DNA from: a virus
DNA length: 30,687 bases
Virus record (IMG/VR): IMGVR_UViG_3300017727_004667
Span: 1 to 30,687 of that record
Reading direction: 5' to 3' (one strand)
The notes beneath the pieces are model-generated. The model saw nothing but the letters and a program-made list of their open reading frames with translations, searched no databases and had not been told where the DNA came from. Every line of letters starts with the position of its first letter. The stretch's first letter is position 1. The position numbers and the translations under genes were made by a program. Of this stretch, positions 15,214 through 29,506 are shown in pieces.

Positions 15214-15952
15214 AGAAGCACTAAACAATTTAAACACAAAGTATGCTAACACGTTAGTAATGTTAGATGATGCTTTGGATTTGATAGAAGATTTAGAAAC
15301 GAAACTGGCTGAGAAGCCTAAGGAAGTGCAAGTTGAAATCGAGAAAATTGTTGAAGTTGAGAAACAGATCCCGGTCGAAAAAGAGACAGTGGTCACTATC
15401 GAAAAGGAAGTCCCAGGACCAGAACGAATCGTTGAAGTTGAAGTCCCCGGACCAGAACGAATCATAGAAAAAGAAGTTATCAAAGAGGTAGTAGTCGAAG
15501 TACCTGTAGAAAAAATAGTAGAAAAAGAAATAGTCAAAGAAGTTCCTGTTGAAGTAATTAAAGAGGTTGAAAAAGAAGTACACAAAGTAATACCAGGACC
15601 AGAAAGAGTTGTTGTACGAACAGATAACAGGGAAATAGAACGCCTTACAAAGTTAGTTGCTGAATTAGAAAACCAATTAGAACAACGACCTATTAAAGAA
15701 AAGATTGTTGAAGGCCCTAGAAGAGCAGTAAGAGTTGAATTACCAAATACCGGAGACCTTAGAACTGCGGCAACATTAATTGCAAATAGTGAAATGAATG
15801 CAGATGATTTATCAACAAATGAAATACTCAAAATGTTGCAACAAATAAGTGAAGAAGATGTAAATAAACAGTTAGGAGGGTTTTGGGCTGTTCCATTACC
15901 AAACGATACTGATAACGATGATACTGATACAAACTATGTTACGAGGAAATAA
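15191..15952 (+). CDS. Repeat-rich elongated protein, partner of the membrane protein
   Basis: A 253-residue protein in three parts: a helical N-terminus (1-40), a Val/Glu/Lys/Pro repeat region (43-143) with three PGPER units (75-79, 86-90 and 135-139), and a C-terminal coiled coil plus acidic tail. The repeat shares KEVPVEVIKEVE with the C-terminus of the upstream membrane protein, so the two probably interact or arose by domain sharing. It overlaps that gene by 23 nt in another frame, and its stop overlaps the clpX start (TAATG). The antisense frames here are open only because of the repeat composition. Confidence 0.75.
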   Translation: MAKKITVKEALNNLNTKYANTLVMLDDALDLIEDLETKLAEKPKEVQVEIEKIVEVEKQIPVEKETVVTIEKEVPGPERIVEVEVPGPERIIEKEVIKEVVVEVPVEKIVEKEIVKEVPVEVIKEVEKEVHKVIPGPERVVVRTDNREIERLTKLVAELENQLEQRPIKEKIVEGPRRAVRVELPNTGDLRTAATLIANSEMNADDLSTNEILKMLQQISEEDVNKQLGGFWAVPLPNDTDNDDTDTNYVTRK

Positions 15953-17220
15953 TGCCCGGTAATAAAGATAGCGAACAAAATTTAAACTGTAGTTTTTGTG
16001 GTAAAAAGCGAACTGAAGTAAAGAAACTCATCGCTGGTCCCAGTTCATACATCTGTAATGAATGTATTAGCATCAGTCACAAAATAATCAACGAAGAAGA
16101 TCCTTTAGAAGATTTACTATTTGAGGATATTCCTACGCCTGAAGAAATCAAAGCACATCTAGATGAATATGTAATCAGCCAAGAATATGCAAAAGAAATA
16201 TTGTCTGTTTGTGCATATAATCATTACAAAACAATTTATAATGAAAGTGATACTGAAATAGAAAAAAGTAATATTATTATTTTAGGTAATACAGGAACAG
16301 GTAAAACACTATTAGCAAGAACACTTGCAGAAAAGTTAAGTGTGCCTTTTGCTATTGCAGATGCTACAACATTAACTGAAGCAGGATATGTTGGAGAAGA
16401 TGTAGAAAGCATGTTAGAACGTTTACTTAATATGTGTGATTGGAATTTAGAAGTAGCACAAAAAGGTATAGTATTCATAGATGAGATAGATAAAAAGGCT
16501 CGTAAGGGCGAGTCTAACACCGGCACAAAGGATATTAGTGGGCAAGGTGTACAACAAGCACTATTAAGACTTATAGAAGGTACAACTGTTAAAGTATCTT
16601 CAAATGGTTCTAAACGTATGGATCAATTTGTAGAATTTGATACAACTAACGTACTATTCATATGTAGTGGTGCATTTGTTGGATTAGAAAAACAAATTAA
16701 TACAAGAACAAATAAAAAGAATATAGGGTTCAATAAGACCCTCAAAGACACAACTAAAAAAGATAATTGGCAACACAAAGTAGTACATGATGACTTAATA
16801 AGTTTTGGTCTAATACCAGAACTTGTTGGAAGACTGCCAAACATTGTTCCTTTAGAACCTTTAACTGAAAGTGATATGAAATCAATTTTAAAATCATCCA
16901 AAGCAAGTGTTCTTCCACAGGTTAAAAAACTATTAGAGTTTGACGATATTGAATTAGAATTTAACGAAGAGTATATAAATGATATTGCCAAAATGGCAAG
17001 TAAAACAAAAACTGGTGCTAGAGGATTAAAATCTATTGTAGAAAATAGTCTACATAATGTTATGTTTAGAGCACCCAAACTCAAAGAAAATGGAGTTAAA
17101 GCAATAAGGTTTAACAAATATCCTACAAAAGATGTTGACACATACCCTATTTTCATATATACTAACGGTAATGAAGAATCAGATAATGATTACAAAATAA
17201 AGATTAGAGGTAAAAGTTGA
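15952..17220 (+). CDS. clpX: ClpX, AAA+ unfoldase
   Basis: A 422-residue, full-length ClpX homologue, the hexameric unfoldase that feeds proteins to ClpP. The N-terminal zinc domain has C13, C16, C35 and C38. The AAA+ part shows Walker A GNTGTGKT (112-119), pore loop GYVG (145-148), Walker B IVFIDE (173-178), GLIPELVGRLP and sensor-2 KTGARGL. The NIGF string matches the IGF loop that docks ClpP, so use of host ClpP is plausible; no clpP is seen here. A GAGGA ribosome site precedes the start, which overlaps the previous stop. It is co-directional with bS21 and bacterioferritin. The other Clp factor, ClpS, is at 23197. Confidence 0.93.
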   Translation: MPGNKDSEQNLNCSFCGKKRTEVKKLIAGPSSYICNECISISHKIINEEDPLEDLLFEDIPTPEEIKAHLDEYVISQEYAKEILSVCAYNHYKTIYNESDTEIEKSNIIILGNTGTGKTLLARTLAEKLSVPFAIADATTLTEAGYVGEDVESMLERLLNMCDWNLEVAQKGIVFIDEIDKKARKGESNTGTKDISGQGVQQALLRLIEGTTVKVSSNGSKRMDQFVEFDTTNVLFICSGAFVGLEKQINTRTNKKNIGFNKTLKDTTKKDNWQHKVVHDDLISFGLIPELVGRLPNIVPLEPLTESDMKSILKSSKASVLPQVKKLLEFDDIELEFNEEYINDIAKMASKTKTGARGLKSIVENSLHNVMFRAPKLKENGVKAIRFNKYPTKDVDTYPIFIYTNGNEESDNDYKIKIRGKS

Positions 17221-20694: not shown

Positions 20695-21339
20695 ATGAAA
20701 AATTTATTCAACATAGAGAATGGATTCAAGGTAGCAGTAATACTATTGCTTTCTATGATTGCATTCGGGGCCCAAGCGGCTTCAGTGAGCGGAAACGTTG
20801 GTTACGGAAGTGACTATGTTTTCAGAGGACAATCACAAACACAAGGCGATAGTGCTTTGAGCATGGGTCTAGACCTAGATATAGGTAAAGGCGTATATGC
20901 TGGTGTTTGGGCATCTGAAGTTTCTTATGCTGGCAGTGATGCTGACAGAGAAACTGACATGTATGTAGGTTGGGCTGGATCAATCGGCAATGACATTAGT
21001 CTTGACGTTGGTTACATCGACTATGCATATAGTGGTGATGCTTCTTTAGATGGTTCTGAGATTTATATCTCAGGTTCATACAAAGACTTGACTGTATCTC
21101 ACAACATCGGAAACGATGACTTCACAGACTACACAGAAGTCTCATATAACATAATGGACGCAGTTGATGTGTCTTATGGTTCATGGGATAGTGTAGGCGA
21201 CAATTGGTCAGTAAGTAGAAGTTTTGATTTACCAGCAGGTATTGAAGGAACAGTTGCTTATGTGGACTTTGCCGCTGAAGACGGTTCAGGACTTGCAGAC
21301 GAAGATACTTTTGTATTTTCAGTTAGCAAATCATTCTAA
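20695..21339 (+). CDS. Secreted outer-membrane beta-barrel, Gcw_chp (TIGR02001) type
   Basis: A 214-residue protein with a clear signal peptide (K2 and K12 before a VAVILLLSMIAFGAQA core, cleavage near A28) and a mature part resembling the Gcw_chp/TIGR02001 proteobacterial family: SGNVGYGSDYVFRGQSQTQG, alternating amphipathic strands with Gly-Tyr and Gly-Val repeats, and a terminal Phe (VSKSF) typical of BAM-inserted barrels. It should sit in the host outer membrane. Strong early promoter, a structured leader and an AGGAGG site mean high expression. Possible roles are superinfection exclusion, nutrient uptake or envelope change; none is proven. It ends at a terminator. Confidence 0.85.
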   Translation: MKNLFNIENGFKVAVILLLSMIAFGAQAASVSGNVGYGSDYVFRGQSQTQGDSALSMGLDLDIGKGVYAGVWASEVSYAGSDADRETDMYVGWAGSIGNDISLDVGYIDYAYSGDASLDGSEIYISGSYKDLTVSHNIGNDDFTDYTEVSYNIMDAVDVSYGSWDSVGDNWSVSRSFDLPAGIEGTVAYVDFAAEDGSGLADEDTFVFSVSKSF

Positions 21340-22015: not shown

Positions 22016-22063
22016 TTGATTTTTGCCAAAAAAGTACTATATAATGTATATAGATTATAAATA
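22016..22063 (+). promoter_or_regulatory. Tandem early and late promoters for the long leader and Hsp20
   Basis: TTGATT (22016-22021), 18-nt spacer, TATAAT (22040-22045), and 10 nt later a perfect late box TATAAATA (22056-22063). Either would start a transcript near 22052-22069, about 430 nt ahead of the Hsp20 ATG. Confidence 0.6.
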
Positions 22064-22069
22064 TCTTTG

Positions 22070-22470
22070 CAGTTTAAGAAATAGAAGAAGTGCAAGGGCA
22101 AAAGAATCGTAAGAAACTAGAGTCTACTGTACAACTGATATAACTAAAATTGCAACCTTTAACAACCAAGGAAGATACACAAGGTAAGTGAATCGTAAGT
22201 GAAACAAACCGAATGGTAACAGACTAGGAAGTAAAAGGTTTTAGGACATAGTCTTAAAAAGAAATCGAACAAAGCGAAGTCCTCGGATTAGCGGAGTTAG
22301 AGATCGGACTATATCCGTTTTGGGGTAACCAACAAAGGACTAAGAGTGGTAACACTCAAGGTAACCAAGAAGTTTACCAAGTGTAGTGAGGAGATACAGA
22401 TACACACTAACAGAAACGACCTCACAATGCGACCTCTTTATTCGCCATAAGGGTTTAAAGAGTTGGAATA
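22070..22470 (+). ncRNA. Long structured leader or non-coding RNA upstream of Hsp20
   Basis: No credible reading frame exists in about 400 nt. Instead there is a chain of hairpins: AGACTA (22221-22226) with TAGTCT (22249-22254); CGGA-CTATA-TCCG (22305-22317); TTGG-GGTAA-CCAA (22320-22332); GAGTG-GTAA-CACTC (22344-22357), a GNRA tetraloop; GGTAA with TTACC (22360-22378); GTGAGG (22386-22391) with CCTCAC (22420-22425); CTCTTTA with TAAAGAG (22434-22462). AACCTTT near 22154 can pair with AAAGGTT near 22235. The motifs GAATCGTAAG (twice) and GGTAAC (four times) recur. It may be a leader RNA controlling Hsp20 or a separate RNA. No known family recognised. Confidence 0.55.
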
Positions 22471-22498
22471 GATAACTTGCTAAATATAGGAGATTATT
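22471..22498 (+). promoter_or_regulatory. ROSE-like RNA thermometer hairpin over the Hsp20 ribosome site
   Basis: GATAACTTGCT (22471-22481) faces AGGAGATTATT (22488-22498) across a 6-nt loop AAATAT. All eleven positions align with only C22476/A22493 unpaired, two G-U pairs, and a G22479/G22490 opposition. UUGCU against AGGAG with a G-G pair is the hallmark of ROSE thermometers, which control small heat-shock genes in Proteobacteria. The Shine-Dalgarno AGGAG (22488-22492) is masked and the helix reaches the ATG at 22499. Confidence 0.65.
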
Positions 22499-22942
22499 AT
22501 GAATAAGCAAATCCGATTCACAACCGAATCACTATCCCCACTATATAAAATGTCCATAGGCTTCGACAGACTTGCAGAGCAATTCTTTAACGATCCTACG
22601 TTCACAAATAATGCAACTGGGTATCCACCCTTTAATATCAGCAAAGGCAAAGGAACTGATTTATATGAAATTACTTTGGCTGTTGCAGGTTTTAAAAAGG
22701 ACGACATCGAACTTGAAATCGAAGATGGAGTACTGAAAATTTCAGGTACATCTGGTGTATTAGATTCTGATGATACTGAATACTTACACAAAGGTATTGC
22801 TGAAAGAAATTTTGTTAGAACTTTTAAACTAGCAGAATTTGTTGAAGTTGCAGAAGCCAAACTAGAAGACGGTATTTTAAGAGTTTCACTGTTCAGGAAT
22901 GTGCCTGATGCAATGAAACCACAAAAGATTAAAATATCATAA
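22499..22942 (+). CDS. hsp20: Small heat-shock protein (Hsp20, IbpA-like)
   Basis: A 147-residue holdase chaperone with the alpha-crystallin domain at about residues 45-135: GYPPFNISKG, YEITLAVAGFKKDDIELEIE, VLKISG and the GILRVSLFRNVPDAMKP C-terminus. Hsp20 genes are frequent in T4-like marine phages and probably help capsid folding. The start matches the family (LSPLYKMSIGFDRLAEQFF). It is preceded by the ROSE-like hairpin and the long leader, and followed by a strong terminator that lies just 4 nt before the bL33 gene, so transcription of the downstream suf genes needs read-through or other promoters. Confidence 0.92.
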   Translation: MNKQIRFTTESLSPLYKMSIGFDRLAEQFFNDPTFTNNATGYPPFNISKGKGTDLYEITLAVAGFKKDDIELEIEDGVLKISGTSGVLDSDDTEYLHKGIAERNFVRTFKLAEFVEVAEAKLEDGILRVSLFRNVPDAMKPQKIKIS

Positions 22943-29221: not shown

Positions 29222-29460
29222 TGAATATACCTTTGAACGTTTCACAAGCATTTAACAGGGCTGTAAGTAATCCTGAAAATATTCAGACTAATGGTTCAGT
29301 TAATTGGAATTGGGTTGATGCTGATGTTTACATGGATGTTGGTCCCGTCGATACAGATGGTAATCCAATAAGCAATCAGGAACATTACGCAATGTTTGAT
29401 GTTTTAGCAAGTGCTTACGAAAAAGCAAATGGTAAACAAATTCAATCAGACATTCGATAA
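29221..29460 (+). CDS. Small hypothetical phage protein
   Basis: A 79-residue acidic protein starting MNIPLNVSQAFNRAVSNPEN and containing NWNWVDADVYMDVG. I do not recognise a domain. It is coupled to the preceding gene by a TAATG overlap and followed by a strong terminator, so the two form one early unit. Confidence 0.7.
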   Translation: MNIPLNVSQAFNRAVSNPENIQTNGSVNWNWVDADVYMDVGPVDTDGNPISNQEHYAMFDVLASAYEKANGKQIQSDIR

Positions 29461-29477
29461 GAACAATCCAATATATT

Positions 29478-29506
29478 ATGCCCGGCTTAGGTCGGGCATT
29501 TTTTTT
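29478..29506 (+). terminator. Rho-independent terminator
   Basis: ATGCCCG (29478-29484) and CGGGCAT (29493-29499) with an 8-nt loop, then a run of T to 29506. Confidence 0.9.

Follow-up and report, generated by a model that had tools for sequence, protein, structure and literature searches.

The stretch of DNA analysed here (the window) is the whole of a 30,687-base record classed as viral, and carries hsp20, clpX, clpS and suf genes. The features considered are listed in Table 1. The hsp20 gene encodes an IbpA-type small heat-shock protein (PF00011, E 4.8e-16), and is preceded by a non-coding region that contains two promoter-like motifs, a large structured leader and, immediately before the start codon, two hairpins. 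Downstream of hsp20 this marine phage carries clpS and a nearly complete SUF iron-sulphur cluster operon.

Table 1. Features of the window, with the observations on which each assignment rests.
Position	Strand	Feature	Basis
15952-17220		clpX	protein family search
20695-21339		ORF of the Gcw_chp family (PF09694, uncharacterised bacterial protein), with an N-terminal signal-like segment	protein family search
22016-22045	+	sigma70-like promoter: TTGATT (22016-22021), 18 nt, TATAAT (22040-22045)	sequence; conserved in an alignment of nine relatives; not tested as a promoter
22056-22063	+	T4-type late-promoter-like TATAAATA	sequence; conserved in relatives
22064-22430	+	large conserved non-coding structured leader of unknown class	z-score -4.2 for 22050-22530; covarying helices; no Rfam match
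22195-22200		conserved GUAAGU within the large leader	sequence
22434-22462	+	hairpin I: outer stem CUCUUUA/UAAAGAG (22434-22440 and 22456-22462), U.U mismatches, C22443-G22453, unpaired G22444, C22445-G22452, C22446-G22451, loop AUAA	sequence; covariation in 77 leaders; conserved alignment columns
22471-22498	+	hairpin II, SD-masking: GAUAACUU-G-CUA / UAG-GAG-A-UUAUU with unpaired G22479 (or G.G register); strands GATAACTTGCT (22471-22481) and AGGAGATTATT (22488-22498)	sequence, folding and covariation
22475-22480		ACUUGC, possible partner of GUAAGU	RNAalifold
22476-22481	+	anti-SD motif CUUGCU (U(U/C)GCU family motif)	sequence; motif counts in leaders
22488-22492	+	Shine-Dalgarno (SD) AGGAG	sequence; 6 nt before ATG
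22499-22942	+	hsp20 (147 aa); Y42 and R103 correspond to IbpA Y34 and R93	PF00011; alignment with E. coli IbpA and 17 phage Hsp20
23197-28491		clpS, SufB, SufC, SufD, SufS and a FeS_assembly_P protein	protein family search
29455-29506		strong terminator-like hairpin GCCCGGCTTAGGTCGGGC followed by a T run	matched weakly by terminator parts of AgvB and PhrS models

A sequence-only reading of this locus had proposed that hairpin II is a ROSE-like RNA thermometer, which fully masks the SD by placing UUGCU opposite AGGAG with a G-G opposition, preceded by a second hairpin as in multi-stem ROSE elements. The observation is confirmed, and both hairpins lie where that reading placed them. The pairing is more than chance: a descriptor of both hairpins hits the window once, at this site, and hits 0 of 200 dinucleotide shuffles, although the descriptor was derived from the family and this is therefore supporting evidence only. 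The 96-nt leader by itself is not unusually stable (z -0.85), and the case rests on conservation and covariation, not on folding energy.

Two points in that reading require correction. The first is the register of hairpin II. Two registers are nearly equal in energy, differing by 0.3 kcal/mol at 20°C: the G.G register originally proposed (-5.66 kcal/mol, with a C22476.A22493 mismatch), and a bulged-G register (-5.35 kcal/mol), in which C22476-G22492, U22477-A22491 and U22478.G22490 flank an unpaired G22479. Across phages the changes follow the bulged-G register, in which 88 of 88 sequences pair at each of the three positions next to the G, against 56 of 88 and 83 of 88 in the G.G register. The bulged-G register is also the one seen in a crystal structure of the oppF ROSE stem, where the unpaired G is flanked by U.G and C-G, while the G.G register resembles the B. 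japonicum NMR structure (both described in PMC11342760). The second is that full masking holds only for the 5′ UTR folded alone, as discussed below.

Homologous hsp20 leaders were collected using protein homology only. DNA similarity of the leader to cultured phages was also searched and gave none, so that the link had to be made by protein and structure. A protein search in IMG/VR gave 33 hsp20 loci (loci are designated here by L numbers). The 14 closest (69-90% identical) all keep AACTTGCT..GGAG before the ATG, and their first hairpin keeps the core CGCC-N(4-6)-GGG in its unpaired-G cap. This includes L011-L013, where everything further upstream is different. More distant relatives (38-47% identity), which were not chosen for the leader, show the same layout with other letters, for example AGUA-G-CCU/AGG-UACU in L015 and CCUU-G-CU/AGGAGG in L022. 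Sixteen cultured phages were then examined: Melnitz (OM43), Mosig, HTVC008M, HTVC103P and HTVC115P (SAR11), Atu_ph07, Phosso, P-SSM3, P-SSM5, P-TIM40, S-RSM4, ACG-2014e, S-B68, S-BM3, S-TIM61 and C48C1. All have the SD hairpin and nearly all have hairpin I. Hosts range from SAR11 and OM43 to cyanobacteria, rhizobia and Agrobacterium. Proteins beginning MTNLEV or MTFNSL, at first considered to be phasins, proved to be HSP20.

With 160 further loci there are 189 leaders, of which 91 are non-redundant at 90% over the last 60 nt. These were compared with 351 SD-bearing leaders of other ORFs in such contigs. The bulged-G, SD-masking hairpin is found in 87 of 91 hsp20 leaders against 3 of 351 controls, hairpin I in 76 against 7, and both in 72 against 1. 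The motif YGCU..AGGR is carried by 86 of 91 hsp20 leaders and 7 of 351 controls. The absence of pairing in homologous phages had been named in advance as a result that would count against the thermometer, and it was not observed: the pairing is present, with compensatory changes, in nearly all the non-redundant leaders examined.

Both helices covary. With anchors set by sequence only, pairs 2-6 of hairpin I pair in 53-75 of 77 leaders against 29-44 expected, and 0 of 2000 permutations reach the observed pairing at each of the five. In hairpin II the three pairs below the unpaired G are complete in 88 of 88, with 0 to 2 of 5000 permutations as good for the two that vary on both sides; pair 3 is CG 62, UG 22, GC 2, AU 1 and UA 1 (0 of 5000). 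Leaders are related, so permutation counts are not probabilities. CUU/GAG, CUC/GAG, UUU/GAG, GUC/GAC, AUC/GAU, CAC/GUG and UAC/GUA all pair, so that the SD strand itself changes with its partner: GUC-G-CUU/AAG-GAC in S-RSM4 and ACG-2014e, AUC/GAU in HTVC103P, CAC/GUG in S-TIM61 and UAC/GUA in S-B68. A formal pair count on 30 matches of a covariance model (R1, described below) gives 85.1% paired against 70.6% shuffled, and a covariation score of 0.397 against 0.153 for shuffles and at most 0.096 for slid partners. That alignment was fitted to the structure and leans towards it, whereas the anchored counts do not have this bias. Two MAFFT alignments misaligned the SD strand and were not used for pair counts. 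Pairing of CUUGCU with AGCAA in the coding region is seen in the window's relatives but not in cultured phages, and was not retained.

The relationship to ROSE was tested with Rfam models. A scan of the whole window gave no ROSE match at E <= 1, because the window is divergent. However, ROSE_3 (RF02523), the short thermometer of Pseudomonas ibpA, recognises several sister phage leaders: L176 (37.4 bits, E 4e-4), L193 (35.7 bits), Melnitz (34.1 bits, E 1.6e-6 when the whole genome is searched) and C48C1 (26.8 bits, E 1.3e-4 likewise). Its only match in the window is this site, at 14.2 bits and E 0.039. None reaches the curated cut-off of 43 bits, and we therefore describe the element as ROSE-type, not as a member of the curated ROSE_3 family. 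The window's match to ROSE_2 (RF01832, the E. coli/Salmonella ibpA leader) is not significant (13.3 bits, E 2 in a 141-nt search). A DNA pattern CGCC..GGGT..AACTTGCT was too loose, giving mostly chance matches, and was not used. A scan for AACTTGCT..AGGAGA..AT.ATG returned at least 100 places, and of 94 ORFs behind them 67 are HSP20. The leader of the IbpA-like gene in an unconfirmed Pseudomonas phage record (probably host DNA) reads GCGGGAU-G-CCGAAGACGGGUUCCGC .. ACUUGCUgauaauucAGGAG, which is the same plan as in the window.

Model R1 was built from 15 pelagiphage-type leaders, leaving out the window and its relatives. It ranks 22438-22501 first in the whole window (25.8 bits, E 7.5e-4; next 11.8 bits, E 1.2), and finds hsp20 leaders as best match in 13 of 24 phage records. 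It also finds leaders of sphingomonad hsp20 genes, whose proteins are the closest cellular ones; the direction of transfer was not examined. Most of these alphaproteobacterial leaders (L451-L458 and L460, of L450-L460) have two hairpins with the same unpaired G before an AAUUGCUC..GAGGAU hairpin, and they are not reported by any Rfam ROSE model at E <= 0.5 in the six loci scanned.

Folding predictions support occlusion of the SD for the 5′ UTR alone. In the window the SD is unpaired with probability 0.15 at 20°C and 0.20 at 37°C (0.12 at 10°C to 0.23 at 42°C), and SDs of hsp20 leaders are less accessible than those of controls (0.25 against 0.48 unpaired at 20°C, p 6e-16). When 29 nt of coding sequence are added to the window, a competing fold appears and the SD is unpaired at 0.44-0.55 (0.44 at 20°C; 0.39 to 0.59 over the 10 to 42°C range), and with 30 nt added hsp20 leaders no longer differ from controls (0.43 against 0.45). 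Hairpin II is transcribed before the coding region and so can form first, but this point was not settled, and the predicted melting is gradual. The hairpin is weak, at -5.4 to -5.7 kcal/mol at 20°C. This leaves room for an ordinary weak leader hairpin with a constitutive effect on translation level and no regulation in phages, kept because hsp20 came with it from proteobacteria; the sphingomonad genes have the same layout, so inheritance is plausible. We consider this unlikely, because compensatory changes in several lineages, including in the SD strand, and the constant unpaired G argue for selection on the weak helix itself.

The best explanation, in which we have good confidence, is a two-hairpin ROSE-type translational control element in the 5′ UTR of phage hsp20, and the interpretation of the sequence-only reading is supported, with the ROSE assignment backed by the independent ROSE_3 matches in sister phages and by the same architecture in a Pseudomonas-type ibpA leader. 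The element has the U(U/C)GCU motif opposite the SD, a G within the anti-SD strand that is unpaired or opposed to G, two hairpins of which the last holds the SD, and a position in front of a heat-shock gene. In this view hairpin I is a stable hairpin with a conserved unpaired G, while in hairpin II CUUGCU pairs with AGGAG across an unpaired G and a U.G pair, which makes the helix deliberately weak. At normal temperature the SD would be covered and little Hsp20 made from the transcript, and on warming hairpin II would open and ribosomes bind. The analysis itself shows the sequence, the conserved structure, its covariation, its near-exclusive association with hsp20 and its relationship to ROSE_3. 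Occlusion of the ribosome and melting with heat are inferred from tested bacterial elements, there being no experiment here and no measurement of translation against temperature. In the tested Pseudomonas element the same unpaired G, U.G pair and two hairpins give heat-induced translation, and hairpin II alone senses temperature while hairpin I does not melt (PMC3669281). That temperature, rather than unfolded protein sensed through Hsp20 itself, is the main signal in infection is inferred with less support; cyanophage and pelagiphage hosts see small temperature swings. The same leader sits in front of nearly all the phage hsp20 genes sampled, so many phages probably carry their own built-in sensor of heat (or protein damage).

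An alternative, which can act together with the thermometer, is that the element is mainly the operator of a chaperone feedback loop, in which phage Hsp20 (or the host's IbpA) binds the leader and represses hsp20 translation until unfolded protein titrates it away, temperature being only one of several inputs. E. coli IbpA represses its own translation through the ibpA 5′ UTR, its ROSE leader; R93 is essential and an aromatic residue is needed at Y34 (PMC10474464). The window Hsp20 has R103 and Y42 at those places, whereas IbpB lacks the arginine. The arginine is invariant in the 19 sHsps aligned (17 further phage proteins and one sphingomonad), including cyanophage ones. However, R93 is also partly important for chaperone activity in E. 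coli IbpA (PMC10474464), so its conservation may have another cause, and there are no binding data for any phage sHsp, nor was binding or repression assayed here. Hairpin I keeps its unpaired G in 76 of 91 leaders, which is more sequence conservation than a pure melting hairpin needs. A feedback role is not excluded, and we regard it as a tentative possibility.

The closest described system is ROSE_3 (PMC3669281). It also has two hairpins, the first with one unpaired G below a two- or three-pair cap and the second with ACUYGCU against AGGAG and an unpaired G, placed 5-12 nt before the start of an sHsp gene. The present element differs in being phage-borne and AU-rich, in the sequence of hairpin I (UUCGCC..GGGUUU with U.U mismatches in the window), and in often lying directly behind a T4-type late promoter motif instead of a sigma32 promoter. 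ROSE_2 shares the UCGCUGAUUUCAGGAG hairpin at the SD, but is longer, with more 5′ hairpins. RNA thermometers proposed or tested in phages so far are lambda cIII, SPbeta blyA (fourU) and a gut phage sigma70 leader (fourU) (PMC11182007, PMC10586365). None of these is ROSE-type or on a heat-shock gene, and each is a single case, not a family spread over hundreds of phages. ROSE is already known, and what is new is its place and spread in phages: no report of this family was found in literature searches on ROSE or RNA thermometers with phage, cyanophage or Hsp20, although these covered mainly open-access papers and are not proof. The hsp20 gene has been called part of the core genes of T4-like cyanomyophages (PMC9004378), and the question of what phage Hsp20 is for, host heat survival or capsid assembly (PMC7674155), becomes directly testable by asking when its translation is released. 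The family also shows a proteobacterial-type riboregulator apparently working in phages of cyanobacteria, and gives a large natural alignment of the ROSE fold.

In 58 of 75 leaders with a found hairpin I, a T4-type late-promoter-like [AT]AAATA lies within 25 nt before it, against a 4% background, which suggests a late transcript that starts at the element. In the window's clade the corresponding TATAAATA is about 370 nt away, separated by the large structured RNA. A conserved, strongly folded RNA of 230-540 nt lies between the promoter motifs and the ROSE-type element in this clade (the window, L001, L003-L010, L014, L110, L172, L206, L252 and L269). It has several GNRA-type loops (CGUAAG, GGUAAC, GGCAAC) and a covarying stem around a constant ACAGGACACACACUAACGAAUG loop. 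A group I intron was considered because of an AGACUA/UAGUCU pair and the GNRA loops, but that pair lies in a variable part and no Rfam intron match appears.

A further alternative is that the ROSE-type element is only the expression platform of this RNA: the upstream RNA would sense something, and its GUAAGU would pair with ACUUGC, freeing the SD. RNAalifold does pair the two, with 47 of 48 cells paired. The pairing does not covary, both strands being constant, and in L172 GUAAG becomes GUAAC while ACUUGC stays, which fits a C-GUAA-G to G-GUAA-C tetraloop closing pair instead. In addition, the sister phages L011-L013 and all cultured phages have the ROSE element without the large RNA. This explanation is therefore considered improbable. 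A broader hypothesis, which is not ruled out but which we think unlikely, is that across T4-like and other tailed phages hsp20 is under a phage-owned proteostasis switch, a late-promoter transcript that starts at a ROSE element and is repressed both by cold and by the phage's own IbpA-like chaperone, so that Hsp20 would be made only when heat or assembling virion proteins overload it. In the window's clade the large RNA would then have been placed between promoter and switch, and would feed another signal into it.

A repeated hairpin module, TCTTCAAAAGAGC[AT]CGG, appears as an insert in the large upstream RNA (L003, L010, L110, L172, L252) and also in leaders of other phage hsp20 genes (L162, 9860-9930, and L185). 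In the Prochlorococcus phage P-SSM5 (L287, 1-51), the 3′ part of a manA RNA motif (RF01745) lies about 450 nt upstream of hsp20.
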